Source: Candidatus Kaiserbacteria bacterium (GTDB lineage: Bacteria; Patescibacteriota; Minisyncoccia; Phycocordibacterales; Phycocordibacteraceae). From it: a stretch of 40,539 nucleotides of DNA. Position numbers and translations under genes: made by a program. Position 1 is the stretch's first letter. Every line of letters starts with the position of its first letter. This document shows positions 10,160-26,016 of the stretch, in pieces. The notes under the pieces are model-generated. The model did not search any database. It was not told the origin of the DNA and saw nothing but the letters and a program-made list of their open reading frames with translations. Location of the stretch: contig JACQBN010000023.1 in the NCBI GenBank assembly GCA_016194455.1, forward strand, positions 1-40,539, read 5' to 3'.

Positions 10160-10165
10160 TATAAT
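10160..10165 (+). promoter_or_regulatory. Consensus -10 box TATAAT upstream of the peptidase gene
   Basis: tgtggTATAATg; overlaps the annotated ATG at 10164, implying the real start is ATG 10194. Confidence 0.55.
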
Positions 10166-10193
10166 GTCCCTCGTTATCAGCCATACCCCTCTT

Positions 10194-11480
10194 ATGATTA
10201 CTCGCACCCCATTCTTCGCGGCAGCGCTTGCTTTCGTCTTTCTTCTCGGTGGTTCCCTCGCGTATGCCGAGCAGGGTCCCCCCGAAGACGGCGTCTCCGC
10301 GGCCGACCGCGCGAACTACCAGGCGCTCAATATCGAAGGACGGTTCGGCGTGCATTTCAAGGCGCATAAGAGCGTCTGCGCGGAAGCTGGCGCGGGCACC
10401 GCTCGCTGCGCGGCGCGTGTCATTACCGATGCTGCCGGCCGCCCCGCGGCGACCCTGAAGGCCGTGAGCGGCTTCAGTCCTAGCCAGATTCTCGGCGCGT
10501 ACGGTCTTAGCGGCACGGTCTCCGGGCTACCGATCATCGGCATCGTGGACGCCTATGACGACCCGACGATCGTAAGCGATCTCGCGACATACAATGCGAG
10601 CTCCAGCATTCCCGCCCTCCCGACCTGCACCACGAGCACAATCGCCTCTTCGCCCACCGCCTGCTTCCTCAAGGTGAATCAGCTTGGTGCTACGACCTCG
10701 CCTCCGACGGTCGACGCCGGCTGGGCGCTCGAGACCTCGCTTGATGTGGAAATTGCGCACGGGCTCTGCCAGAACTGCAAAGTCCTCTTGGTTGAGGCCA
10801 GCTCCGCAAGCTACAGCGATCTCCTCACTGCGGTCGATAAGGCGGTCGCGCTTGGCGCGAAGATCGTTTCCAATTCTTGGGCTAGCGGGGAGTTCCGCGG
10901 CGAGACGACGTACGACACCCACTTCAGTCATCCAGGCATCGCCTTCCTCTTCGCTTCAGGCGACAGCGGTTATGGCACCGCGTACCCGGCGGCTTCACGC
11001 TACGTGACTTCGGTGGGCGGCACGAGCCTCTTCCTAAATGGGAATGGCTCCTACAACCAAGAGCTCGCCTGGAGCGGGACAGGGAGCGGCTGCAGTTCTT
11101 TTGAAGGGAAACCCTCCTGGCAACACGATGCGAAATGCGCGCGCCGCACGCTCAATGACGTTGCCGCGGTCGCGGACCCCAACACCGGCGCGGCTATCTA
11201 CGACTCAACACCCTTTGGCAGCGCCTCCGGCTGGTTCGAGATCGGCGGTACCTCGCTCGCGACTCCGGTGCTCGCGGCGGTCTACGCGCTTGCGAGCCCT
11301 CTGCCCACCGGCACCCAAGAGAATTCTCTGCCCTACTTCGCGAATCTCTCCACGACGCTCCATGACATCATGAGCGGCGCGAACGGCAGGTGCGGCAGCG
11401 CCTCATATCTCTGCACCGCAGTTACGGGCTACGACGGCCCCACCGGCCTCGGAACGCCGAAAGGCACCGGCGCTTTCTAG
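10194..11480 (+). CDS. Secreted sedolisin-like (S53) serine-carboxyl peptidase
   Basis: Signal peptide ITRTPFFAAALAFVFLLGGSLAYA; ETSLD (E/D), FASGDSG (oxyanion Asp), GGTSLATP (Ser); FSPSQILGAYGL...IGIVDAYDDP. Confidence 0.88.
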   Translation: MITRTPFFAAALAFVFLLGGSLAYAEQGPPEDGVSAADRANYQALNIEGRFGVHFKAHKSVCAEAGAGTARCAARVITDAAGRPAATLKAVSGFSPSQILGAYGLSGTVSGLPIIGIVDAYDDPTIVSDLATYNASSSIPALPTCTTSTIASSPTACFLKVNQLGATTSPPTVDAGWALETSLDVEIAHGLCQNCKVLLVEASSASYSDLLTAVDKAVALGAKIVSNSWASGEFRGETTYDTHFSHPGIAFLFASGDSGYGTAYPAASRYVTSVGGTSLFLNGNGSYNQELAWSGTGSGCSSFEGKPSWQHDAKCARRTLNDVAAVADPNTGAAIYDSTPFGSASGWFEIGGTSLATPVLAAVYALASPLPTGTQENSLPYFANLSTTLHDIMSGANGRCGSASYLCTAVTGYDGPTGLGTPKGTGAF

Positions 11481-11507: not shown

Positions 11508-12869
11508 ATGCGCACCGCTCGCCGTGTCTTCCCAGGAATGCTCTTCGTGTGCGCGGCGCTGCTCGTTCCTCTGGTGGCGTTGGCTAGCAGCAATGCGCTG
11601 CGGATCACCGGATACTCGAACATCATGTCCGACGGCACGGGCGACACAGTCGTGCTCTTCCCCACGCCGAAGGCAACTGACAAGTTCGACGCTCCCGTGC
11701 CCGTCTTCTGCGACCACAGCTCCGGCGACACTTACCCTCTCGGCCGAACGGCCGTAATCTGCACCGCGACCGACACATTCGGCAATTCCTCCACCATCCA
11801 CTTCGTCATCAACGTGCGCAATGTGAATAATCCAACCATTACCGTCACCTTCACCGATACGGGCGGCCATGATGTTTTTGCGACCACGACGGTGAACGGC
11901 GCGGACACGGGGCCGGTCCTCTACACGGTCGTCGCACAGGACGGCGCACAAGGGAGAATCTTCAATCAGAACCAGATTTCGTGCATACCGCCTTCAGGCG
12001 CGATCTTCCATCGCGATACGGACGGTACCACCATCACGCCCCTAATTTGCAGCGTCTCCGTATCCGGCCACGCGGTCTTCCAGGAAACCCCCGCCGTCAT
12101 CAGCGTTGAAAATACCAGCGTGCACGGCCTCTCTTCCTGCACGCTCGACGGCCTCACCCTCGATGACGGGCAGTCGACCACGTTCTACTCCTCGAAAATC
12201 GTTACTTCAGTCACCTGCAGTGCCGTTGCGCAGGGCCGCACCTGCACGGACGGGGTGCTCTCTGGCAGTGATTCATATCGCTATTCGTCATGCTCGGGCC
12301 CCGGCTCCCTCATCTCTTCTGGTTCTGGCGGCGGCGGGGGCTGGTTCTTCAATCCCTTCGGCCCGTACCCACATCCGAACGCCGGCAACGGCCTGGGGAA
12401 CGGGAATACTTCGCCCTTCACTAATCTGCTTGGTCTCGGCTCGGGCAATGGGAACACAAGTTGCCTCTCTTATGAGGTGAAGCAGCTGCAGATATTCCTC
12501 AACGCGCACGGCTTCTTAATTGCAAAAACAGGCCCGGGCTCTCCAGGGCAGGAGACCGGCGTCTTCGGCCCGGCGACCGTGGCCGCACTGATCAAATTCC
12601 AGGAGGCGAACGCTAAGTACATCCTTAAACCACTCCACCTCAAAAAGGGCACCGGTAAGCTCGGCCCCGGGACCATAAAGTTCATCAACAAGCTGCTCGG
12701 TATCACTACCGCCGGGACTCCGCTCCCCGCAAGCTGCGCCCCGGGCAACTCTCCCGGTTCTTCCGGTACGCACAAAAATGTGGCGACCACGACGCCTCAG
12801 CCCCCGGCTGCCACACCTCCTGCCCCGAAGAAGAACGGCTGCCCCAAGTGGCTTTGTTTCTGGCGATAG
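11508..12869 (+). CDS. Secreted protein with HYR-like domain and C-terminal peptidoglycan-binding-like domain
   Basis: Signal peptide; PLGRTAVICTATDTFGNSSTIHFVINV (HYR); EVKQLQIFLNAHGF...GVFGPATVAALIKFQEAN (PG_binding_1-like). Confidence 0.8.
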   Translation: MRTARRVFPGMLFVCAALLVPLVALASSNALRITGYSNIMSDGTGDTVVLFPTPKATDKFDAPVPVFCDHSSGDTYPLGRTAVICTATDTFGNSSTIHFVINVRNVNNPTITVTFTDTGGHDVFATTTVNGADTGPVLYTVVAQDGAQGRIFNQNQISCIPPSGAIFHRDTDGTTITPLICSVSVSGHAVFQETPAVISVENTSVHGLSSCTLDGLTLDDGQSTTFYSSKIVTSVTCSAVAQGRTCTDGVLSGSDSYRYSSCSGPGSLISSGSGGGGGWFFNPFGPYPHPNAGNGLGNGNTSPFTNLLGLGSGNGNTSCLSYEVKQLQIFLNAHGFLIAKTGPGSPGQETGVFGPATVAALIKFQEANAKYILKPLHLKKGTGKLGPGTIKFINKLLGITTAGTPLPASCAPGNSPGSSGTHKNVATTTPQPPAATPPAPKKNGCPKWLCFWR

Positions 12870-12916: not shown

Positions 12917-14131
12917 ATGCCTGGCGACGCTGTTGAGCGCGAGCTTGTGCGTGGCCGCGGATTGTCCGTCATCACACTCGTCGACCATCTGATAGAGGCG
13001 GCACAGGAGAAGCGCGCATCCGACATCCATCTTGACCCGCTCTTCGAGGGCGTGCGGGTTCGTTTCCGTATCGACGGCGTGCTCCAAGATGTGTACCGCC
13101 TGCCGAGGGAGGTGCGCTCGGAGATCGTCTCGCGCATCAAGGTACTCGCGAGTCTGCGCACGGACGAGCACCAGACGGCGCAGGACGGGCGCTTCCGGCA
13201 TTCCTTCGGTGGCAATGCATTCGTGGACATCCGCGTTTCCATCGCGCCCACCTATCACGGCGAGAACGTCGTCTTACGCCTTCTCTCTGATGTCGCGCAG
13301 GAATTTACACTTCAAGCGCTCGGCTTCGGCGAGAGCGATCGACGGAAGATTATCGAAGCGATCAGGAGGCCGAGCGGCATGATCCTCGTCACGGGTCCGA
13401 CCGGGAGCGGGAAGACGACCACCCTCTACACTCTCATCAAGATGCTGAACGCCCCGGATATTTCGGTTATCACGATTGAAGACCCGATTGAGTACGGCGT
13501 CGCGGGTGTTGAGCAGATGCAGGTCAACACGCGCGCCGGCCTCACGTTCGCCACCGGGCTGCGCACCATCCTTCGGCAGGACCCGAACATCATTATGGTC
13601 GGCGAGATCCGCGACGCCGAGACGGCCTCCATCGCCGTCAATACCGCGCTCACCGGGCACCTCCTCCTCTCCACGCTCCACACCAACGACGCGGCAACAA
13701 CGCTCCCGCGCCTCCTCGACCTCAGGGTGGAGTCCTTCCTGGTCGCCTCCACCATCAGCCTCGCGATAGGGCAGCGGCTAGTCAGGAAGCTCTGCCCCGC
13801 CTGCAAGCAGGAGTTCAAGGCGAGCAGGGAGCTCGCGAAGAGCCTCGCCGCAGTGTCGCTCAACAAACCAATCGCCGCCGGAGAGAGGCTCCAGCGCCCG
13901 AAGGGGTGTAAGAAATGTGGCGGCACTGGCTATCACGGCCGTATCTCCATTAATGAAGTGCTCATCGCCGATGCCAAGATCCGCGAGGCGATCCTCGCGC
14001 GCGCGCCTTCCAGCGAACTGAAAAGAATTGCCATCAAAGGCGGCATGACCACCATGCTTGAGGACGGCCTCACCAAAGTGCGCGCAGGAGTCACCAGCGT
14101 GGAGGAGGTGCTCCGCGTCATTCATGAATAA
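12917..14131 (+). CDS. pilB: Type IV pilus assembly ATPase PilB/GspE
   Basis: GPTGSGKTTTLYTLI Walker A, IMVGEIRDAETASIA Walker B, CPAC...CKKC zinc motif; no long N-terminal MshEN domain. Confidence 0.95.
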   Translation: MPGDAVERELVRGRGLSVITLVDHLIEAAQEKRASDIHLDPLFEGVRVRFRIDGVLQDVYRLPREVRSEIVSRIKVLASLRTDEHQTAQDGRFRHSFGGNAFVDIRVSIAPTYHGENVVLRLLSDVAQEFTLQALGFGESDRRKIIEAIRRPSGMILVTGPTGSGKTTTLYTLIKMLNAPDISVITIEDPIEYGVAGVEQMQVNTRAGLTFATGLRTILRQDPNIIMVGEIRDAETASIAVNTALTGHLLLSTLHTNDAATTLPRLLDLRVESFLVASTISLAIGQRLVRKLCPACKQEFKASRELAKSLAAVSLNKPIAAGERLQRPKGCKKCGGTGYHGRISINEVLIADAKIREAILARAPSSELKRIAIKGGMTTMLEDGLTKVRAGVTSVEEVLRVIHE

Positions 14132-15299
14132 ACCAGATTGGCAGAAGCTGCGGGCGGAAGTCGGGAAACACGCGAAGCGCGCTCTCAAAGAGGCGCGTCG
14201 ATGGAAGAAGCACGCGCACACGCTCTCCGGGCATCTGAAGCAACTCTCCTCCCGGCGCCTTTCCATTAAGGATCAAGCTTTTTTCGCCAAGAGGCTCGCC
14301 TTCCTCATCACGGCAGGCGTACCGATCATGGAGAGCCTCATCATGATCCACGAGCAGGCGCGCTCGCGCGCTTTCTCGCGCGTGATCGATGTCGTCATTG
14401 ATGACGTCGCGAACGGTCAATACCTCTCGAAGAGCCTCGAGCGCTTTCCCGAAATGTTCGGCCAGTTTGCGGTCAATCTCATCAAGGTGGGAGAGACGAG
14501 CGGGACATTGAGCCAGAACCTGGACTATCTCGCCGACGAACTCAAGAAGAAACAGATGCTGCGGCGCAAGATCATCGGCGCCCTCATCTACCCGGCGGTG
14601 ATTACGTTCGCGACGTTAGGCATCACCGCATTCCTGATGGTTTACCTCTTCCCCAAGATCATACCGGTCTTCTTGAGTTTGCGGACGAAGCTGCCGCTCT
14701 CCACCCGCATCGTGATCGCGATCAGCAGCTTCTTGCGGCACTGGGGGCTCCTGCTCATCTTCTTGATCGTCGCCGGGGTCGCGGCGTTTATGGTCGCGCG
14801 CAAGCGAAGCGGACGCCTGCGCACGCTCGTCGACCGTTTCATTCTTAAAGTGCCGGTCTTGGGCACGATGACCCGCTACTACAATCTTGCGAATATCACC
14901 CGTACGCTCGGCCTCCTTCTCAAGACCGGCACCACGCTCTCCGCCGCGCTCGCAATCACCGCCGATACGAGCATGAACATTATCTATCAGCAGCATCTCG
15001 CAGCGCTCGGGCAGTCGGTGATCCGCGGCAAGACGCTTTCGGTCTATCTGGACCAGCAGCGCGAGATCTTCGGCGATATCCTCTGCCAGATGGTCGCGGT
15101 GGGGGAGCGGAGCGGCACGCTCTCGAGTACGCTTATCTATCTCTCGGAGTTCTACGAGCACGAGCTCGATGATTACGCCCGGGGGCTCTCGAGCCTGATT
15201 GAGCCCGCGCTCATGATCTGCATGGGGCTCCTGATCGGCTTCGTCGCCATTTCCATCATCACGCCCATCTATGCCATTACGCAAAACCTCCATCCCTAA
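14124..15299 (+). CDS. pilC: Type IV pilus inner-membrane platform protein PilC/GspF
   Basis: FFAKRLAFLITAGVPIMESL, VGETSGTLSQNLDYLADELKK, VAVGERSGTLSSTLIYLSEFYE; start trimmed to ATG overlapping the pilB end. Confidence 0.95.
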   Translation: MNKPDWQKLRAEVGKHAKRALKEARRWKKHAHTLSGHLKQLSSRRLSIKDQAFFAKRLAFLITAGVPIMESLIMIHEQARSRAFSRVIDVVIDDVANGQYLSKSLERFPEMFGQFAVNLIKVGETSGTLSQNLDYLADELKKKQMLRRKIIGALIYPAVITFATLGITAFLMVYLFPKIIPVFLSLRTKLPLSTRIVIAISSFLRHWGLLLIFLIVAGVAAFMVARKRSGRLRTLVDRFILKVPVLGTMTRYYNLANITRTLGLLLKTGTTLSAALAITADTSMNIIYQQHLAALGQSVIRGKTLSVYLDQQREIFGDILCQMVAVGERSGTLSSTLIYLSEFYEHELDDYARGLSSLIEPALMICMGLLIGFVAISIITPIYAITQNLHP

Positions 15300-15736: not shown

Positions 15737-17254
15737 ATGCGGCGCGGCTTTTCGACGCTTGAAATAATGCTCGCACTCGCGATTTTTTCCATCGTGCTTG
15801 CGGGCGCTATCATCGCGCACTTCAGCGCGCAGTACTGGACCATCGTCTCGCAGACTTCCGGCGAGGCATTTTCGCTCGCGCACCAGCAGATCGAGGATGT
15901 ACGGGCAGAGGCGCGGCACGACTTCGTCTCGGCCGTTTCGACCACCTCCACGTCCTGCTTGGGCGCGCTCTGCTATTCGGTCTCGACCAGCGTGAGCGAT
16001 ATCTCGCCGTGCGCCAAGAACGTTACCTCGAGCGTCTCCTGGCAGGTCGCGCATTATCCGAGCGCGAGCATCTCACTCCCAACGATCTTTACCAGCACCT
16101 CGAGCGCGATTGCACTCGGCGGCGACTGCTCTCTTTCGTATCCGGGCGACTGGACCACCCCCTCTACTCCTGTTGCAACGACCACGGTGAACACGCCCAC
16201 CGGAATAGATGCACTGAACGGCACGATATATAGCAGCGAAAGTAGTTCTCCGTATCTCGAAGCGATCACGCCGTCGGGCGTCCACTATGCATATACGGCT
16301 CCCGACAACACGAAACTGCTGGAACCGGCGTACGCGATTGATGTTGCGCGCGACCTCACTACGGGAAAGGTTTACGCTTACCTCGCGACGGGACCAACCA
16401 ACATCTCCATCGTCGACGTGACAAATCCATCCGCCATGGCTTTTGTGGCTTCAACGACATTTAGCAGCACAAGCGGCACAAATACGTCCGGCAGAAGCAT
16501 CGCTTATTTTAAAGGTAACGTGTATGTCACAACGGACGCTCGTAATAATCGAATAGGCCGCGATCCTGTTTTGTATGTGTTTGACGTAACGAATCCCGCG
16601 TCACCCCAGGAAGTTGGCTCAATCAGTGGCGCGAATCTGAATACGAGCATTTATGGCCTTGCTATACAAAAGAAGTTCGTTGGCGGTGCGCCGACGACTC
16701 TCGCGTTCCTCGCGACGACGCTCGGGACTGGTCAACTGCAAGTATTCGACGTGACAAGTCCACAGAGCATCGGAACGCCACTTGCTAGATGCTCGGTTTC
16801 CGGCGGACTTCCTTCCACGTCGCTCTCATTGCTCGGCAACGACGTCTTTATTGGACTGCAGACGCAAACCACCGATAGCTCGCCAGCGATAGCAGTCTTT
16901 GATGTAAACAATGTGTTGCCGCCGATTTCTTCGTGCGCGCCAATTGCAGCAGCAAGTGCCAAGGCCGTAAGTTGTGACAAGAGCAATTCGCAAAAAACGC
17001 GGTATCCGTACGCGCTGTTCGCCACAGGATCATATCTTTTTGCCCTTACCGACAACACGACCCCGAATCTGGGAGAGTTGCAGGTCTGGCGGACGGATGT
17101 GTCCAATGCCGATGCGAGCAAACGGCTTTCATTCCAGAAAGAATATCCCGATAGCTGTGCAGGACCAGCGATGAGCGCAATCGACTTCGACAGTGACGCC
17201 AATTCGCTGTACATTATGGCGCCGACAGGCGCACAAATATTCACCGGCAACTAA
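15737..17254 (+). CDS. Prepilin N-terminus (GspI/PilV-like) fused to an LVIVD-like beta-propeller domain (set B)
   Basis: MRRGFSTLEIMLALAIFSIVLAGAIIAHF pilin helix; repeats VYAYLATGPTNISIVDVTNPSAMAFVAST, VYVTTDARNNRIGRDPVLYVFDVTNPASPQEVGSIS, LAFLATTLGTGQLQVFDVTSPQSIGTPLA. Confidence 0.85.
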   Translation: MRRGFSTLEIMLALAIFSIVLAGAIIAHFSAQYWTIVSQTSGEAFSLAHQQIEDVRAEARHDFVSAVSTTSTSCLGALCYSVSTSVSDISPCAKNVTSSVSWQVAHYPSASISLPTIFTSTSSAIALGGDCSLSYPGDWTTPSTPVATTTVNTPTGIDALNGTIYSSESSSPYLEAITPSGVHYAYTAPDNTKLLEPAYAIDVARDLTTGKVYAYLATGPTNISIVDVTNPSAMAFVASTTFSSTSGTNTSGRSIAYFKGNVYVTTDARNNRIGRDPVLYVFDVTNPASPQEVGSISGANLNTSIYGLAIQKKFVGGAPTTLAFLATTLGTGQLQVFDVTSPQSIGTPLARCSVSGGLPSTSLSLLGNDVFIGLQTQTTDSSPAIAVFDVNNVLPPISSCAPIAAASAKAVSCDKSNSQKTRYPYALFATGSYLFALTDNTTPNLGELQVWRTDVSNADASKRLSFQKEYPDSCAGPAMSAIDFDSDANSLYIMAPTGAQIFTGN

Positions 17255-17255
17255 T

Positions 17256-17729
17256 ATGCGCGGGTTCACCCTCATCGAGACCATCGTCTACATCGGCCTG
17301 CTCGCCGTGCTGATGAGCGCGGCCATCGTCGCGACCTTCCAGTTGATTGATAGCGGCGCGCACAACGAGACCGCGGTCGCCATTCAGGAGGAGGGAACGT
17401 TTCTCGAGCGCAAGATCGGCTGGGCGCTCACCGGTGCGACCAGTGTGAGTGCTCTAAGCAATACGCTCACGATCACCCGGTTGGCGAGCAGCAGCTTCCC
17501 CGATACCGACAATCCGCTCACCATCTCCGTAAACGGCACATCCCTGATCCTTCAGCGCTCGGTCTATACGCCAGTCGCGCTCAATAGCGCGGCCTTTGCC
17601 GTAACGTCCTTTACTGCCACGGTCGACACGTCCCAGATGCCCGCTAAGGTTGATGTCAGCTTTAGCGTCCAGACCATAGGCACGCCCACACAAAGCGCCG
17701 CGTTTACATACCGCAGCTATCTGCGATAA
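17256..17729 (+). CDS. Pseudopilin, GspJ/PilW-like (set B)
   Basis: MRGFTLIETIVYIGLLAVLMSAAIVATFQLIDSG; start trimmed from ORF 17193..17729. Confidence 0.85.
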   Translation: MRGFTLIETIVYIGLLAVLMSAAIVATFQLIDSGAHNETAVAIQEEGTFLERKIGWALTGATSVSALSNTLTITRLASSSFPDTDNPLTISVNGTSLILQRSVYTPVALNSAAFAVTSFTATVDTSQMPAKVDVSFSVQTIGTPTQSAAFTYRSYLR

Positions 17730-17736
17730 TAAGGAG

Positions 17737-19473
17737 ATGGGCAACGTGCGGCGCAAACGCGAAGGCGGATATATCGCGCTGATGGCGACGATCGTCATCG
17801 GTCTTGTGCTGCTGGTGATGACTGCCGAGGAGGGCTTCGCCGGCATGCACGCCCGCTTCAATGTGCTCGGCACCGAGCGCAAGGAGCAGGCGACGACGCT
17901 CGCCGAGGGGTGCCTGAATCAGGGCATGGCGAAGCTCTTGGTCGATCCCTCTGCCGCGAGCCGTATCGACGCAGTCAATGGCTACGACTCGGGTGATCAA
18001 TCCCGCACCTATTCTTATCAGATCGGGGCCTTGAACAACGCTCTCAACGATGCATCCACTGCATTCAGCACCAGCACCGTGCTCTTCTATCCGACAGGAA
18101 CCGTGCGCGACGAGACGGGCGCCTCCACCAACGCGAATCTGCAAGCCATCGTAGATTTTTCTGGCGTCAACCTGAACTTCTCTAGTGACAAGGGCGTTTT
18201 GGTTGTGCAAGCTGTCGTGGGCGGCAACAATGACGCGAAGGATCAGCCAGAAGACTTCCAGATCCAAGTCGCGGGGCAAGGTCCCGTACCGCTCGTACAA
18301 GGCATCGGAGTCGCCAGCTCGACTGACGACACGGGGGTCGCGACCTCTACCTTCCGCGGCTCGGCCTACGGCGTCGCGGTCTATCTTCCCCCCAACACCG
18401 ATTACCATGTGTACGGGGTGCCGAAGAACGGCTATTTGCCGCACTTTGTGTACGCCAATGGCCAGGACAACTGCACCACCGCGCGCTTCACCGGCGCCGA
18501 CATCGGCAATTACACGATAGGCCATGGCATCAAGGTATGCACGATTCGTTTTGAAGGCCCCCACCAAACGACGCTGACGCTCGCGGCAAACGTCATAAAT
18601 CAATACAAAGGCAAAGCCGCGCCGGCTGATTTTACCTACCTTATTGATGGCGCTGCGGCCGGTCTTGCGCGGACCGTGAAGGTCGCTGACGGCCCGCACA
18701 CCATCTCAATCGGGCTCGCGAACGCGCCAAACGGCAAGTATTCACGGCCGATAGTGCAAAAAACGGGCTTGCCGGCCGTATGGCGCTGCTTTTCAGGCGG
18801 GACCACGACACTCGTGACGATGGTGGGCGCGGGTGACGTCTACAACACTCAAGCGACCGTCAACGCACAAAGCGGAACGGACACCGTCTGCACCCTCACG
18901 CTTGCCGACCCGCAGGTCAGTGCGGCGTGCGCCGACACGGCGGTCATGCTTGCGCAGAATGTCAGCAATGGCGGCGGCAACAACGATATCCCCAACCAAA
19001 AAACAGCCGCAAATCAATTACTGGGACTCTTTAACGACAACGGAAAGAAGAGCGGCATTTTCCCGCGCGTTGCGATCGGCAGTTACGGCGACCCGACGGG
19101 CATCACGACCGCCGGACAGGCGACGAGCACCTACGGCACGCAAGCAACGGAGACGTTTACTTTTGGAACTCCAACGCCCGGTACTCCCGTCTCGGTGACG
19201 GTTTTCGCTATAGCGGAAGGAAACGGGGCAGGACTTCAATTGGTGGAAGAGGACGGAAGCGCAATGCAAGTGGGCAATGCGCAGACGCTTACAGACACAT
19301 ACGCCGCGTATTCATACGAATTCAAAACAAAACCCGATAGTTCGACGTGGAGCGCGAGCGACCTCACCGGTGGGCTCTTTGGGAATTGGCAACGCTACAA
19401 ATTCGGCGTCCGTTCAACGAGCTCGGGCGCTCCGCGGGTGACGCAAGTCTACGTGCAGGTGAACTACCAATAG
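17737..19473 (+). CDS. PilX/GspK-like minor pilin with very large extracellular domain (set B)
   Basis: EGGYIALMATIVIGLVLLVMTAEEGFAGMHARFN...ATTLAEGCLNQGMAKL, no Glu5; ~530-aa C-terminal extension. Confidence 0.75.
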   Translation: MGNVRRKREGGYIALMATIVIGLVLLVMTAEEGFAGMHARFNVLGTERKEQATTLAEGCLNQGMAKLLVDPSAASRIDAVNGYDSGDQSRTYSYQIGALNNALNDASTAFSTSTVLFYPTGTVRDETGASTNANLQAIVDFSGVNLNFSSDKGVLVVQAVVGGNNDAKDQPEDFQIQVAGQGPVPLVQGIGVASSTDDTGVATSTFRGSAYGVAVYLPPNTDYHVYGVPKNGYLPHFVYANGQDNCTTARFTGADIGNYTIGHGIKVCTIRFEGPHQTTLTLAANVINQYKGKAAPADFTYLIDGAAAGLARTVKVADGPHTISIGLANAPNGKYSRPIVQKTGLPAVWRCFSGGTTTLVTMVGAGDVYNTQATVNAQSGTDTVCTLTLADPQVSAACADTAVMLAQNVSNGGGNNDIPNQKTAANQLLGLFNDNGKKSGIFPRVAIGSYGDPTGITTAGQATSTYGTQATETFTFGTPTPGTPVSVTVFAIAEGNGAGLQLVEEDGSAMQVGNAQTLTDTYAAYSYEFKTKPDSSTWSASDLTGGLFGNWQRYKFGVRSTSSGAPRVTQVYVQVNYQ

Positions 19474-19474
19474 T

Positions 19475-22400
19475 ATGAAATTCCCTCGCACCATCATTGT
19501 TTACTCCGCCATCGCATTTGCACTAGCCTTCTTTGCAGGAGCGCCAAGCGCGTTTGCTAAATCCACTCAAGCCATCCTCACCGTTACCGGCTTGCCCCCC
19601 AGCGCTGTATACCAACAGTTAGGAATTACCGCCGGTACCTCAGGCGGCAGTGGCACCGGTGCAGTCTCTTACAACGCCGGTAACTCGACCGCTTGCTCAA
19701 TTAACTCTTCAACCGGCGCGGTGACCATCACCAGTGGTACCGGTACGTGTTCTATCACTGCAACCAAAGCAGCTGATACGAATTACAATTCTGCGACGAG
19801 CGCTGCGGTTTCAATTACAATCGGCAAAGCAAATCAAGCCACCCTCACCGTTAGCGGCCTACCATCCAGCGCCGTGTACCAGCAGTCGGGGGTCATCGCC
19901 GGCACTTCAGGCGGCAGCGGCACTGGCTCGGTCACCTACAGCGCTAACAGTTCAACCGCCTGTTCGGTGGGATCTTCGAGCGGTACGGTCACCATCACGA
20001 GCGGTAGTGGCACCTGTTCTATCACGGCGACCAAGGCGTCCGACACCAACTACAATTCTGCGACGAGCGTTGCGGTTTCAATTACGGTCAGCTATATAGA
20101 TCTCACAGCCGGAACCATCACCACTTCACCAACGTCCGTAGCCGTCGGTTCCTCGGTTACTCTCACCGCACCTGTCACGAATTCCGGAACGGCATCGACA
20201 GGAGGAAGCTTCACTGACCTCTTTGAGATAAACCAGAACCAAAATCCCGCCGATTTTGCAAGCATCTACGCAACACAGCCATATACTTCGGCAACGCTCG
20301 CTGCGAACGGCGACACCAACACCGCGAGCGCGTCGTACACCTTTGCTTCCAATGGCACCTGGTATGTACGAGCATGCGCTGATATGGGAACGAGCGGCAC
20401 CGGGAGTATCAATGAATGGAACTCAGGCGGCACAGGCGAGCTGAACAACTGCGGCGGATGGACTACATTCACCGTCAACAACCCCGTCCCAACTACGACT
20501 TCAATTTCACCCACCTCAAAAACGGCGGGCAGTTCCGGGTTCACGCTCACGGTCAATGGAACCAATTTTAACTCGTCTTCCGTCGTCAACTTTGCAGGAT
20601 CTCCGAGAGCAACGACGTACGTGAGCGCGACCCAACTCACCGCGAGCATCTCGTCATCCGACATCGCTACAGCTGATACGTTCAATGTTACGGTTACCAA
20701 TCCGAGTCCGGGAGGGGGAACGTCCGGTTCACAGACGTTCACCGTTAACAACCCGGCCCCGACCACGAGCTCAATTTCGCCAACTTCGAAGGTGGCGGGC
20801 AGTTCCGGGTTCACACTCACGGTCAATGGCACCAACTTCAACTCATCTTCCGTCGTCAACTTTACAGGTTCTGCCAGAACAACAACGTACGTGAGCGCGA
20901 CGCAGCTCACTGCCGCCATTTCAAGCTCTGATGCAACGACAGCAGGTACCTTTGCCATCACCGTCACCAACCCGACTCCCGGGGGAGGAACGTCCCTGTC
21001 GCAGACATTCACCGTGACAGCACCCGACCTCATCATCACCGGCACCATTACCCCCACGGGCGCGACGGCCGGAACGAGCGTCACGTTGACCGCGACAATC
21101 ACCAATCAAGGCAATGTCTCGACCGGTGCAAGCTTCAATACGTTGTTCCAGCAGGCGACCGATGCAAACGGCGCCGGAGCGACCAAACTCGGCACTAGCA
21201 CAGGCTCGACTCTTTCATCGACGGCGGGATCAAATACTGAATCAACAACGCTCCCATACACCTTCACGACCGCCGGCACCACCTACGTCCGCGCTTGTGC
21301 CAACACCACAGACAATGTGACCTTCGGTGTCGCTGAGTCCAACTACGGCAACAACTGCGGTGCGTGGACGCCTATAACGGTGAATCCCGGGGCGCTCGAT
21401 CATTTCGGTATCGGCGCCATTAGCGTCCAAGTCGCGGGTACGCCATTCAGTATCACGATCACTGCGCAGGACGCGAACAATAATACCGTTACGAGCTCCG
21501 CGAGCACGGTTGCTCTCACGTCGAATGCCGGCACAGTTTCTCCGGCGACCACGGGTACATTCACTTCCGGAAAATGGACCGGAACGGTAAGTCTGACGCA
21601 AGCGAACAATGCCGCGATCATCACTGCTACCAACGGCAAAATTGGTACATCGAATGCGTTTATAATAAGCGCAAGTCCCGTTTCCACCGTTACCATCTCG
21701 CCCGCGACGCTTTCTGTCGCACTTGGCTCATCTGCACAATTCACCGCGACAGCGAAAGACCAATACGGCAATACGCGTACGGGGGACTCCTTCTCTTGGT
21801 CTGTGAGTTCCGGTGGCGGCTCTGTGAGTTCCTCAGGGCTCTACGCACCCGACGGCCAGGTCGGTACGTTCACCGTGACGGCGACTGACGGAGCGATTTC
21901 CGGCACAGCAACCGTCACCGTCACCGCGCCGGATCTGACTGCGAGCGGGGTAACTCCTACTACCGTCGCCGCTGGCACGGCGCAATTGTATTCAACGACC
22001 GTGTCGAACATCGGCAATGCCTCGACTGGTGCGAACTTCAACACGCTCTTTCAAACAGCTGCAAATGCAAACGGCACTGGTTCCGCAGACATCGGCAGTG
22101 TCTCTTCGACCGCACTTGCCGGAGGCGCGACGAAGACAGTATCATTTTCGTACACGACTACGAAAGCTGGCACATTCTATATTCGCGCCTGCGCCGATAA
22201 AAGTTCAGCGAGCGACACCGGCCTCATCACCGAGAGCAATGAGAACAACAATTGCGGTGTGTGGACCACGATAACGGTGAGTGCCGGAGCCCTCGACCAT
22301 TTCGGGATCGGAGCAATTGGGACTCAATATGTGAATATACCGTTTCCGATTTCGGTTACTGCACAAGATGCATACAACAACACGATTTTGAATTATGCGG

Positions 22401-23530
22401 GCACGCTCAACTATACGACAAGCGTATGCAACAAGTGTATCTCGCCGACCTCATCGGGATCGTTTACCAACGGTGTGCGTACCGAGACCGTCACCATTTC
22501 TCAAGCAAGTGCCGGCGCCACCATCACTGCGACCGAAAGCGGCGGCGGCAACAACCATCCGGCCAGCACATCAAATAACTTTCCGGTCTTGGCTGTGCTT
22601 TTCCCAACGGGGACAGGCAACTATCAGCAGTGGGTGACGAATACCGACGGTGCGGTGAATGCCGTCGCGGGCAATGATGGCGACACTACCTATGTGTATC
22701 CTCAAAGTCTGTACTCGGTCATCGATCAGTTGAGCCTATCGGGAACAAACGGCAAGGATGTGAGTGGTGCGATTGCCGCCTCGCAGACAGAATTCCAGCG
22801 GATATGGCAAGTTGATAAGTCCATTCTGGCCGGCGCATCGCCGAAACAGCGCACTCTCGTGCTCGTCACGCCGCGCGGTAACCTCTCCGGTAATTCGAAC
22901 TCGCAGGCAATTGTTGACGCGGCGACCTGCGTGAAAACGCTCGACCCCGGCGCATGCTCGCGCGCTGGCATAACGCTCGACTCATCAAATGCGACGACTA
23001 CTATATACGTCATGTCTTGGGGTGCTACCGGCGGACAGAGTTTCAACGATTCGCTTTCGAGCGGACCAGGATATTCTTTTTACGCTCCGAATTCCGACGA
23101 TGTCATTTCGGTATTCAATCAAATCGGACAGGCAATATGCCCCGCGACCGTGGCTTCGGATTCGGGGGCGGCGGGAGGGCCGACCGGCGCCTCACTCCAA
23201 GTTTTCACCCACGTCGTCAACAACGATGGCGGGAAATTGAGCGCGTCCAATTTCCCCTTTACCGTGAATAGCGGAGCACCCACTCCGGGAGCGGAGCCGC
23301 CCACCGGAGTGACTCTCGCCTGGAGCGATCTAACAGCGCCGTATGCGGTTGCGCAATCGCAGGTTGCCGGATACGGCGCGCCGGACATCGGCCCGGGCTG
23401 CACTTCAAGCGACGCGGGTATGCTTATCCTGGGCGAGACGCGCATGTGCGTTCTCACCAACGACGATACCGCCGTGGCGCCAACTATCACGGTAGGCAAC
23501 GGTACTTGGCAGGAAGTCCCCACGTATTAA
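19475..23530 (+). CDS. 1351-aa secreted multidomain adhesin-like protein (MBG/Ig-like, CARDB-like, IPT/TIG-like repeats; VWA-like C-terminal region)
   Basis: Signal peptide; repeats QATLTVSGLPSSAVYQQSG.., PTTTSISPTSKTAGSSGFTLTVNGTNFNSSSVVNF..; RTLVLVTPRG...TIYVMSWGA...SFYAPNSDDVISVFNQIGQAIC. Confidence 0.85.
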   Translation: MKFPRTIIVYSAIAFALAFFAGAPSAFAKSTQAILTVTGLPPSAVYQQLGITAGTSGGSGTGAVSYNAGNSTACSINSSTGAVTITSGTGTCSITATKAADTNYNSATSAAVSITIGKANQATLTVSGLPSSAVYQQSGVIAGTSGGSGTGSVTYSANSSTACSVGSSSGTVTITSGSGTCSITATKASDTNYNSATSVAVSITVSYIDLTAGTITTSPTSVAVGSSVTLTAPVTNSGTASTGGSFTDLFEINQNQNPADFASIYATQPYTSATLAANGDTNTASASYTFASNGTWYVRACADMGTSGTGSINEWNSGGTGELNNCGGWTTFTVNNPVPTTTSISPTSKTAGSSGFTLTVNGTNFNSSSVVNFAGSPRATTYVSATQLTASISSSDIATADTFNVTVTNPSPGGGTSGSQTFTVNNPAPTTSSISPTSKVAGSSGFTLTVNGTNFNSSSVVNFTGSARTTTYVSATQLTAAISSSDATTAGTFAITVTNPTPGGGTSLSQTFTVTAPDLIITGTITPTGATAGTSVTLTATITNQGNVSTGASFNTLFQQATDANGAGATKLGTSTGSTLSSTAGSNTESTTLPYTFTTAGTTYVRACANTTDNVTFGVAESNYGNNCGAWTPITVNPGALDHFGIGAISVQVAGTPFSITITAQDANNNTVTSSASTVALTSNAGTVSPATTGTFTSGKWTGTVSLTQANNAAIITATNGKIGTSNAFIISASPVSTVTISPATLSVALGSSAQFTATAKDQYGNTRTGDSFSWSVSSGGGSVSSSGLYAPDGQVGTFTVTATDGAISGTATVTVTAPDLTASGVTPTTVAAGTAQLYSTTVSNIGNASTGANFNTLFQTAANANGTGSADIGSVSSTALAGGATKTVSFSYTTTKAGTFYIRACADKSSASDTGLITESNENNNCGVWTTITVSAGALDHFGIGAIGTQYVNIPFPISVTAQDAYNNTILNYAGTLNYTTSVCNKCISPTSSGSFTNGVRTETVTISQASAGATITATESGGGNNHPASTSNNFPVLAVLFPTGTGNYQQWVTNTDGAVNAVAGNDGDTTYVYPQSLYSVIDQLSLSGTNGKDVSGAIAASQTEFQRIWQVDKSILAGASPKQRTLVLVTPRGNLSGNSNSQAIVDAATCVKTLDPGACSRAGITLDSSNATTTIYVMSWGATGGQSFNDSLSSGPGYSFYAPNSDDVISVFNQIGQAICPATVASDSGAAGGPTGASLQVFTHVVNNDGGKLSASNFPFTVNSGAPTPGAEPPTGVTLAWSDLTAPYAVAQSQVAGYGAPDIGPGCTSSDAGMLILGETRMCVLTNDDTAVAPTITVGNGTWQEVPTY
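19568..20090 (+). repeat. Two tandem coding repeats (~265 bp units) in the adhesin
   Basis: tacaattctgcgacgagcg.tgcggtttcaattac near the end of both units; protein repeats AILTVTGLPPSAVYQQ.. / ATLTVSGLPSSAVYQQ.. Confidence 0.8.
20490..21020 (+). repeat. Two tandem IPT/TIG-like coding repeats (~265 bp units) in the adhesin
   Basis: ggcgggcagttccgggttcac.ctcacggtcaatgg in both units. Confidence 0.8.
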
Positions 23531-23913: not shown

Positions 23914-25395
23914 ATGAAAAAATACATTGTAGGTATCGGTATCGCTGTTGCAGCACTCGGCCTCGGGGCTACCGTGGCCTTCGCTACGGTTAATCCTGTT
24001 ACCGCAGCGACCGGGGGCGAGGCCATATCTATCGATACGACATCCGCGTCTGGCGGCAGTAATACCTTTACCACCCCCATTACCGGCCCAGTTATTACGG
24101 AAGCTTCCGTGGGCGATATTGGGGCCGGTACTTATGTGTTGACTCTTCCCGCCGGCTGGGTGTTTGATACCGGCGCGACGGTAACAATCGGCCTGAATGG
24201 GGGAACCGATATCGATGCCAGCTCTACTGCGACTGTTGGCAGCAATACGCTCACCTTCGGGGTGCTGACACCCTCTAGTGGGGCCTCGGCCGTGCTTACC
24301 TTCAACGGTATTGCGGTGAAGCCGACGGGGACCGCCACCAGCACCGGTAATATGCTCATCTCTTCCGATGATGGCGGTAGCATCGTGGGAGTAGATGGCA
24401 GCACCAACTTCGGCACGTTCGGCACCGTGCCGGGCGCGCTTACAAGCATCACCGTCTCTCCCGACGGAAACACCATTACTGCAGACCAAACGCAGCTATT
24501 CGCCGCCGAAGGCTTTGACCAGTTCGCGAACAGCAGAGGCGACGTGACCGGGGGCACCACCTTTACCGTGAGCTCCGGCAGCATGTTCGGGTCCTTCACC
24601 GGCGCAACCTTCCAGCCGGCTTCGACGAGCCCATCAATCACGGTGCACGGAGCGCATGCCGACACGGCCGGCGATGACGCGGCAATCACGGTAACGCCCG
24701 GCGTGGCGACAACGGTTGCCATTACCACGCAGCCGGCAAACACGAACGGCACGGTAGACAATCCGCTCCAGCAACAGCCGATAATTCATGTGACCGACCA
24801 ATTCAACAATGACGTTGCCGATGGCACCGCGGTTACCGCCTCGGTGGTGAGCGGCACGGGCCCCGCGCTCCGCAATACCGCAACGACGACCTTGGGCGCG
24901 GGCGTCGCGACCTTTACCACTCTCGGCACGACCTTGGGCGCGGGCGTCGCGACCTTTACCACTCTCGGCTACAACAAAGCCGCGGAACCCTTTACGCTCA
25001 AGTTTTCCTCAAACAGCAATGATAGCGACACCTCAGATACGGTGTCAGCCCTTATTTACGGAGTGCCGCACCATCTGGCATACGACGTCCAGCCGTCAAA
25101 CGTGAGGGTGAACACAGCCATCACACCCGCGGTCAAGGTGAGCATCCGCGACCAGTACGACAATACGCGGACAGGGCAGAACGGCACCGGAGTCTCCGTC
25201 TACGCCGTTACGCCGCAAGGGAAAAAGATCTCAGTTTCAGGCGGCGGAAGCACTACAATCTCCGGCGTCGCCACCTTCTCGTCGATCATGCTTAATCAGC
25301 CCGGCGGCTACGTGCTTGGCGCACACACGTTTGGACTCTCTGACATTCTGTCCGTACCGTTCAACGTTGCTCCCGCAACGAAGGGTAAGAAATAA
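23914..25395 (+). CDS. Secreted Ig-like (Big/invasin-type) surface protein
   Basis: Signal peptide MKKYIVGIGIAVAALGLGATVAFA; IHVTDQFNNDVADGTAVTASV, VSIRDQYDNTRTGQNGTGVSVYA. Confidence 0.8.
   Translation: MKKYIVGIGIAVAALGLGATVAFATVNPVTAATGGEAISIDTTSASGGSNTFTTPITGPVITEASVGDIGAGTYVLTLPAGWVFDTGATVTIGLNGGTDIDASSTATVGSNTLTFGVLTPSSGASAVLTFNGIAVKPTGTATSTGNMLISSDDGGSIVGVDGSTNFGTFGTVPGALTSITVSPDGNTITADQTQLFAAEGFDQFANSRGDVTGGTTFTVSSGSMFGSFTGATFQPASTSPSITVHGAHADTAGDDAAITVTPGVATTVAITTQPANTNGTVDNPLQQQPIIHVTDQFNNDVADGTAVTASVVSGTGPALRNTATTTLGAGVATFTTLGTTLGAGVATFTTLGYNKAAEPFTLKFSSNSNDSDTSDTVSALIYGVPHHLAYDVQPSNVRVNTAITPAVKVSIRDQYDNTRTGQNGTGVSVYAVTPQGKKISVSGGGSTTISGVATFSSIMLNQPGGYVLGAHTFGLSDILSVPFNVAPATKGKK
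24886..24969 (+). repeat. Perfect 42-bp x2 in-frame tandem duplication
   Basis: acgaccttgggcgcgggcgtcgcgacctttaccactctcggc at 24886-24927 and 24928-24969. Confidence 0.95.
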
Positions 25396-25461
25396 AGATA
25401 TACACAAGGAGGCACTTACCTCTTGCACAATATCCTGTTTGCCTCTACGATAGAGGCCATT

Positions 25462-26016
25462 ATGACTCTCTGGCCTCCTGGGGGTGTATTATCCAGCCTT
25501 CGGCGCTCTATACGCGGCCGCGCCTGCCAGGAAGCAGGCTTCACGCTGATTGAAATCCTCATCGTGATCGGCATTATCGCGGTCTTGGCGGGTATCGTCA
25601 TCGTCGCGATCAACCCCGCGAAGCAGTTCGCCCAGGCACGCAACACCCAGCGTCAGGCGAACGTCAACACGATATTGAACGCCATCGGCCAGCGTCTCTC
25701 GGACAATAAGGGGACGTTCGAAGGAACATTTGCCGTGGGGAGTCCTTCAGTATCCTATACATGTGGGCCAATACCTTCCGCGACGACAACCATCACTACG
25801 ACGATGGCCGCAGATACAACCTCGCCGACAGGTAGTATGGGATGCCTGGTCCCGACATATATAGCCACGATGCCGTTTGACCCTGCCGCAAGTTCAACGA
25901 GTAACACAGCCTATTCCGTTTTAGCAGATTCCACCGGCAGAATAACCGTTTGTTCGGGAATGGCCGCGACCGAAACATCGATCCCGGGGGCCGCAGCAAT
26001 TTGCGTCAAGCGCTAA
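25462..26016 (+). CDS. Type IV pilin-like prepilin
   Basis: EAGFTLIEILIVIGIIAVLAGIVIVAINPAKQFAQARNTQRQANVNTILNAIGQ; exact start uncertain (track start 25423). Confidence 0.88.
   Translation: MTLWPPGGVLSSLRRSIRGRACQEAGFTLIEILIVIGIIAVLAGIVIVAINPAKQFAQARNTQRQANVNTILNAIGQRLSDNKGTFEGTFAVGSPSVSYTCGPIPSATTTITTTMAADTTSPTGSMGCLVPTYIATMPFDPAASSTSNTAYSVLADSTGRITVCSGMAATETSIPGAAAICVKR

Follow-up and report, generated by a model that had tools for sequence, protein, structure and literature searches.

The window analysed here is a stretch of 40,539 nucleotides from a Candidatus Kaiserbacteria bacterium (contig JACQBN010000023.1), and it holds a pilus locus in which one minor pilin continues into a beta-propeller. 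The genes of the locus are ordered as a PilB/GspE-like ATPase, a PilC/GspF-like protein, an H pilin, the pilin-propeller fusion, a J pilin, a K pilin, two large surface proteins and a probable major pilin (Table 1). The fusion occupies 15737-17254 as a single uninterrupted open reading frame (ORF) of 505 codons, and its ATG lies 1 base past the stop codon of the upstream pilin gene.

Prepilin and LVIVD models both matched this one ORF. The N-terminus reads MRRG and, after the cleavage site, FSTLEIMLALAIFS, which is a class III prepilin leader followed by its helix; TIGR02532 scored 18.7 bits, over its cut-off of 16.3, and PF07963 scored 18.1 bits, slightly under its cut-off of 21.2. PF08309 (LVIVD) reached 29.3 bits against a gathering cut-off of 20.2 and matched two stretches, the best at residues 213-239, while the choice-of-anchor B model TIGR04312 scored 28.3 bits, far under its cut-off of 100. 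The 505-residue protein gave no match to PF05567 (PilY1) at E ≤ 10; it has the class III leader in place of the type I signal peptide that is a trait of PilY1/PilC, and its repeats match LVIVD and do not match RCC1. A phmmer search of the protein against the PDB sequences returned no match, and in a profile search against the PDB the pilin helix alone was matched (geopilin structures).

The AlphaFold2 model, computed with seven relatives from named records, had a predicted local distance difference test score (pLDDT) of 80 and a predicted template modelling score (pTM) of 0.80. In this model, a long helix lies on an antiparallel sheet, as expected for the pilin fold, and is followed by a short helix and then by strands arranged in seven blades. 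The grouping into blades is our reading of the strand list and does not come from coordinates. Propellers usually close by the first strand completing the last blade, and we read the first strand of the model (146-149) as completing blade 7 in this manner. A Foldseek search of the PDB gave 449 matches at E ≤ 0.001, led by seven-bladed WD40-type propellers (beta-TrCP, EED), and a viral fold search with the same model gave generic propellers only. The added domain, which exceeds the PF08309 cut-off and has a propeller fold, is therefore of a kind not specific to pilus biology, as in other modular pilins. The preliminary description of this gene had placed a class III prepilin helix at the N-terminus, covalently fused to LVIVD-type repeats beginning near residue 190. 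The helix (by its TIGR02532 score), the repeats (by their PF08309 score) and the fusion (by the intact ORF, the model and the orthologues described below) were all borne out, and the anticipated propeller fold is present in the model; only the start had to be moved, as the propeller begins at about residue 146.

Table 1. Features of the pilus locus in window coordinates, with the K-type pilins of relatives used for comparison.
Feature	Position	Strand	Basis
Extension ATPase, PilB/GspE-like, 404 aa	12917..14131	+	PF00437 T2SSE 398.3 bits; TIGR02533 and TIGR02538 under equivalog cut-offs
Inner-membrane platform protein, PilC/GspF-like	14127..15299	+	PF00482 T2SSF 162.8 bits, two stretches
H-type minor pilin (GspH/FimU-like), 154 aa	15271..15735	+	PF12019 GspH 21.2 bits at cut-off 21; PF07963 23.5 bits
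I-type minor pilin with seven-bladed LVIVD-type beta-propeller, 505 aa	15737..17254	+	ORF, PF08309, TIGR02532, AlphaFold, Foldseek, orthologues
MRRG leader peptide; prepilin peptidase cleavage expected after Gly4; Glu5 in the mature pilin	15737..15748	+	Sequence; no variation at G4 or E9 across 27 aligned fusions
Pilin module: long helix at residues 7-61, then a sheet of four strands at 69-119	15755..16093	+	AlphaFold model
Cys92; cysteine at equivalent place in 26/51 full-length fusions	16010..16012	+	Alignment
Cys131, pilin-propeller junction; in 50/51 full-length fusions	16127..16129	+	Alignment
Seven-bladed beta-propeller (residues 146-503)	16172..17245	+	AlphaFold secondary structure; Foldseek PDB matches to seven-bladed propellers
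Best LVIVD repeat (PF08309)	16373..16453	+	Profile match
J-type minor pilin (PilW/GspJ-like)	17256..17729	+	N-methylation motif 18.6 bits, under cut-off; position conserved
K/X-type minor pilin, 578 aa, G|YIALM without Glu5, long C-terminal extension, vWA remnant	17737..19473	+	Sequence; relatives with vWA
Probable major pilin	25423..26016	+	PF07963 27.9 bits; similar pilin downstream of fusion in many relatives
K-type pilins compared	window 17737-19473; L062 2974-5694; L103 1-1983; L064 5903-9892; L065 4242-6245		vWA in relatives

A profile made from six fusions was searched against 397 sampled genomes of the order and matched 226 of them at E ≤ 0.001. Many of these matches were partial, covering the pilin helix alone or the LVIVD repeats of other proteins. 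By our own count from the table of matches, at least 45 of the 397 genomes had a match over nearly the whole model, with E below 1e-38 and in ORFs of ~440-670 residues. With a 27-row profile, more full-length fusions were recovered in the same class and elsewhere across the phylum, and named records carrying the fusion belong to Candidatus Parcubacteria, Paceibacterota, Vogelbacteria, Zambryskibacteria, Kaiserbacteria and Yanofskybacteria; the fusion, which the preliminary description had thought worth seeking in other Patescibacteria, does occur there. These genomes also bear on the question of whether two genes were joined by an assembly error. The assembly of the window is incomplete (83% complete, 31 contigs) and the GC content shifts inside the ORF, but the identical fusion, in an identical gene order, is found in dozens of independent genomes. 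Because of these independent orthologues we rejected an assembly error, the probability of which we take to be negligible. Very large ORFs (~1000-5600 residues) with many LVIVD-type repeats were also seen across the phylum (G087:C18, G312:C30, G329:C9, G553:C1 and others), and these are not obviously pilins.

The shift in GC content is real: the GC profile falls to ~0.50-0.56 at 16.3-17.3 kb from ~0.60 around it, confirming the less GC-rich propeller-coding part noticed earlier. The pilin part has a GC content of 0.612 and a GC content at third codon positions (GC3) of 0.79, versus 0.534 and 0.57 for the propeller part. The preliminary description took this dip as a sign that the propeller had been acquired, but a recent acquisition is unsupported, as the propeller part had the lower GC3 in 23 of the 27 aligned fusions, with the largest drop in the window. 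A domain swap was hinted at by the diverged propeller of the window, which shares only 25-29% identity with those of three near relatives when the pilin parts share 42-49%. In the pilin tree the window grouped with five relatives with a support of 98; this group was absent from the propeller tree but was not rejected there by the approximately unbiased test (p-AU 0.198). Since the separate trees give no support for a swap, faster change in the lineage of the window suffices, although a swap in this lineage may have occurred. Across the family, identities of the pilin and propeller parts were correlated (rho 0.24, Mantel p 0.003). We regard the fusion as old and the propeller of the window as fast-changing.

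The place of the fusion in the operon is well kept. Among 38 fusion loci, where H- and J-type genes were called by a motif rule that misses some, an H-type gene was directly upstream in 32 and a J-type gene directly downstream in 31. A K pilin lacking the glutamate at mature position 5 (Glu5) followed J in at least 20 of the 38; where in reach, the K pilins of fusion loci start with G(F/Y)(I/V)AL(M/I/V), and the missing Glu5 has been described for PilX and GspK (PMC7541494). Because the fusion stands between the H and J genes and is accompanied by a Glu5-less K, it holds the I (GspI/PilV) slot of an H-I-J-K set. This assignment rests on gene order, and it agrees with the GspI/PilV-like minor pilin proposed at the outset. 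Type II secretion systems also have H-I-J-K sets, and the ATPase of the window scored slightly higher against GspE than against PilB, so one may ask whether the locus builds a secretion-like pseudopilus whose propeller would help to recognise or push a secreted protein. We consider this very unlikely, as a downstream gene encodes a pilin resembling the major subunit of pili and PilT is present in the genome.

Other genes around the minor pilins encode secreted proteins. The interval that separates the minor-pilin genes from the major pilin gene encodes a 493-residue Ala/Thr/Gly-rich secreted protein (23914-25395) for which Pfam gave no match. Judged by reading the sequence, 11508-12869, just 5' of the pilus ATPase, encodes a predicted secreted protein of 453 residues with a peptidoglycan-binding-like region (LQIFLNAHGF), and a 438-residue ORF at 10164-11480 with a GGTS...ATP motif resembles a secreted protease of the sedolisin/S53 type.

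The I slot is occupied differently in other lineages of the order. In L093 and L094 it contains a plain pilin (159 and 151 residues), and in four loci it contains pilins of 735-782 residues (L083 1360-3681, L084 1418-3742, L085 1443-3647 and L086 1420-3654). The ~600-residue heads of these four matched no Pfam family over its cut-off; possibly they are display modules of a new type. In L089, where the gene order is less clear, a pilin has a Laminin_G_3 lectin head (PF13385, 86.7 bits). Within the genus, a loss of the propeller was suggested by short pilins that match the pilin part; this was rejected, as the two that were inspected sit in a different type of pilus locus that has no H gene. Most sampled members of the genus had no match to the H gene of the fusion locus.

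Cysteines at the junction of the two modules vary in a regular manner. In the 27 aligned fusions Cys131 was invariant and was accompanied by exactly one second cysteine, either Cys92 in the pilin sheet (17 proteins) or a cysteine in blade 7 (10 proteins). In the wider set of 51 proteins, with a few positions' slack allowed for the partner-cysteine columns, 26 belonged to the Cys92 class and 25 to the blade-7 class, and none had both or neither. On a tree built without the cysteine columns, each of the two traits changed three times and the two agreed in every row. These events, though only three, are suggestive, and on the simplest reading Cys131 forms a single disulfide, made inside the pilin in one class and with blade 7 in the other. 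A single alternative disulfide of this kind fits with a junction that lies against blade 7.

We think it likely that the fusion is a modular type IV minor pilin whose propeller is a built-in display module for the pilus tip, probably, by analogy with related systems, an adhesin. Besides the I pilin, the locus encodes a dedicated extension ATPase and platform protein as well as a probable major pilin. The prepilin peptidase would cut it after Gly4, and it would then assemble with H, J and K into the priming complex of the pilus. Pili grow from tip to base and K lacks Glu5, so the priming complex would come to lie at the tip and leave the bulky propeller exposed; an H-I-J-K complex has been located at the pilus tip in other systems (PMC10191384, PMC7541494). 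There, the most likely action of the propeller would be to bind a ligand, either on a partner cell or on a surface, and one polypeptide would do what PilY1 and minor pilins do elsewhere. Tip position and adhesion are both things that we infer from analogous systems: modular pilins can act as adhesins (PMC8179133), and in TM7x without the propeller pilin PilX2, host binding decreased from ~10.6% to 4.6% of host cells (PMC12206443). Weighing against the proposal are the analogical nature of the adhesin role, the GspI family model, which matched the helix of the fusion only (15.6 bits, cut-off 44.35), and the presence in the genome of ComEC and other pilus loci, by which DNA uptake is also possible.

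The propeller may instead be mainly structural, capping or stabilising the priming complex or sensing load during pilus assembly with no external ligand. In Myxococcus, PilY1 is required for pilus formation (PMC7541494), and the alternative partners of Cys131 tie the junction to the pilin or to blade 7, suggesting a rigid unit. However, the short pilins and unrelated heads that hold the same slot in other lineages are more in line with an interchangeable display module than with a constant role in assembly, and we count them for display; a mainly structural propeller seems unlikely to us.

Two more type IV pilus loci are present in the genome of the window (~0.6 Mb). The first, L054 (G000:C6), contains PilB, PilT and PilC with PilN/O-like genes, and the other, L053 (G000:C17), contains a short propeller-free I-type pilin of 161 residues with a ComEC-type gene nearby. 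The ComEC-type protein (TIGR00360, 71.1 bits; cut-off 36.5) and PilT (430 bits; cut-off 319.1) raise the question of whether the propeller module could be a DNA receptor for natural transformation, as has been described for the Thermus tip pilin ComZ (PMC8179133). Compared by description only, ComZ of Thermus thermophilus is comparable to the fusion as a large minor pilin of the tip type to which a beta-rich domain has been added; its domain is, however, a beta-solenoid with a proposed role in DNA uptake (PMC8179133), a different fold from the propeller. In addition, the ComEC gene lies near the locus with the propeller-free I pilin, away from the fusion locus. A DNA receptor therefore appears quite improbable, and display at the tip is the role that we prefer.

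The adjoining K pilin is modular too: in several relatives it bears a von Willebrand factor A (vWA) domain and, in some of them, SpaA_2 as well. The vWA match was over its cut-off in L103 (38.8 bits), in G019 of the same genus (L062, 29.3 bits) and in L064 (26.4 bits), at the cut-off in L065 (23.8) and under it in L068. The vWA of L065 has a DRSMS motif resembling a metal ion-dependent adhesion site (MIDAS), whereas the K pilin of the window reads AQNVS at that place and is ~200 residues shorter; from its sequence, the vWA of the window appears degenerate and lacks the MIDAS motif. The AlphaFold model of this K pilin had a pLDDT of 37. The K pilin is short in most of the other fusion loci, so that vWA on K concerns a subset. 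The product of the gene after K (19475-23530; 1351 residues) has a Sec-type N-terminus and contains three CARDB domains as well as Ig-like matches; its last 150 residues resemble the C-terminus of the 1330-residue K pilin of L064 (37% identity).

In Pseudomonas aeruginosa, the modules of PilY1 are a vWA domain and a propeller (PMC8179133). Fusion-type pili may thus divide these modules between two pilins of one tip complex, I bearing the propeller and K the vWA, with no need for a separate PilY1; we offer this divided PilY1 tentatively and regard it as rather doubtful. PF05567 was sought in 59 relatives and 287 genomes of the phylum and none was found, but no control genome contained PF05567, and its absence is thus unproven.

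Modular pilins are well established: Raynaud et al. counted more than 1,200 in 264 architectures (PMC8179133). As in the fusion, PilB and PilC of Streptococcus sanguinis have a class III leader, a pilin module and a foreign C-terminal domain (PMC8179133, PMC9934059), but their heads are vWA and lectin domains, respectively, and that of the fusion is an LVIVD-type propeller. An 860-residue Candidatus Falkowbacteria pilin with 12 copies of IPR013211, the LVIVD repeat, whose function is described as unknown (PMC10210494), is among the listed modular pilins (PMC8179133). It has the same architecture, and its entry in that list comes without fold, operon place or family, whereas for the fusion we describe a propeller of seven blades and a place in the I slot of an H-I-J-K operon. 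A patescibacterial pilin bearing a propeller has been known from TM7x since 2025 (PMC12206443): like the fusion, PilX2 of Nanosynbacter lyticus is a minor pilin with a C-terminal seven-bladed propeller, but its carrier is of the PilX type, with RCC1 repeats and no predicted PilD leader, whereas the fusion has an I-slot carrier with Glu5, a canonical leader and LVIVD-type repeats. PilY1/PilC (PF05567; PMC7541494) resembles the fusion in that a beta-propeller is presented by H-I-J-K minor pilins, to which P. aeruginosa PilY1 adds a vWA domain; the fusion differs in not matching PF05567 and in being itself a pilin. Choice-of-anchor B surface proteins (TIGR04312) have related LVIVD-type repeats, and that family as defined has no pilin anchor.

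The novelty is limited, as modular pilins are established, an LVIVD pilin was listed in 2021 and the propeller pilin PilX2 is known. In the literature searched, the words LVIVD and pilin were not found together in one paper. What is new is the I-slot fusion family, its spread, the cysteine switch and the vWA on the neighbouring K pilin in relatives. For partner recognition by ultrasmall Patescibacteria, proteins of the pilus tip are leading candidates, and a recurring pilin-propeller family with a fixed operon place can serve as a marker and offers one defined protein for expression. Its existence suggests, too, that a propeller at the tip may do without a separate protein of the PilY1 type, and that different lineages carry different modules in the I slot of the priming complex.
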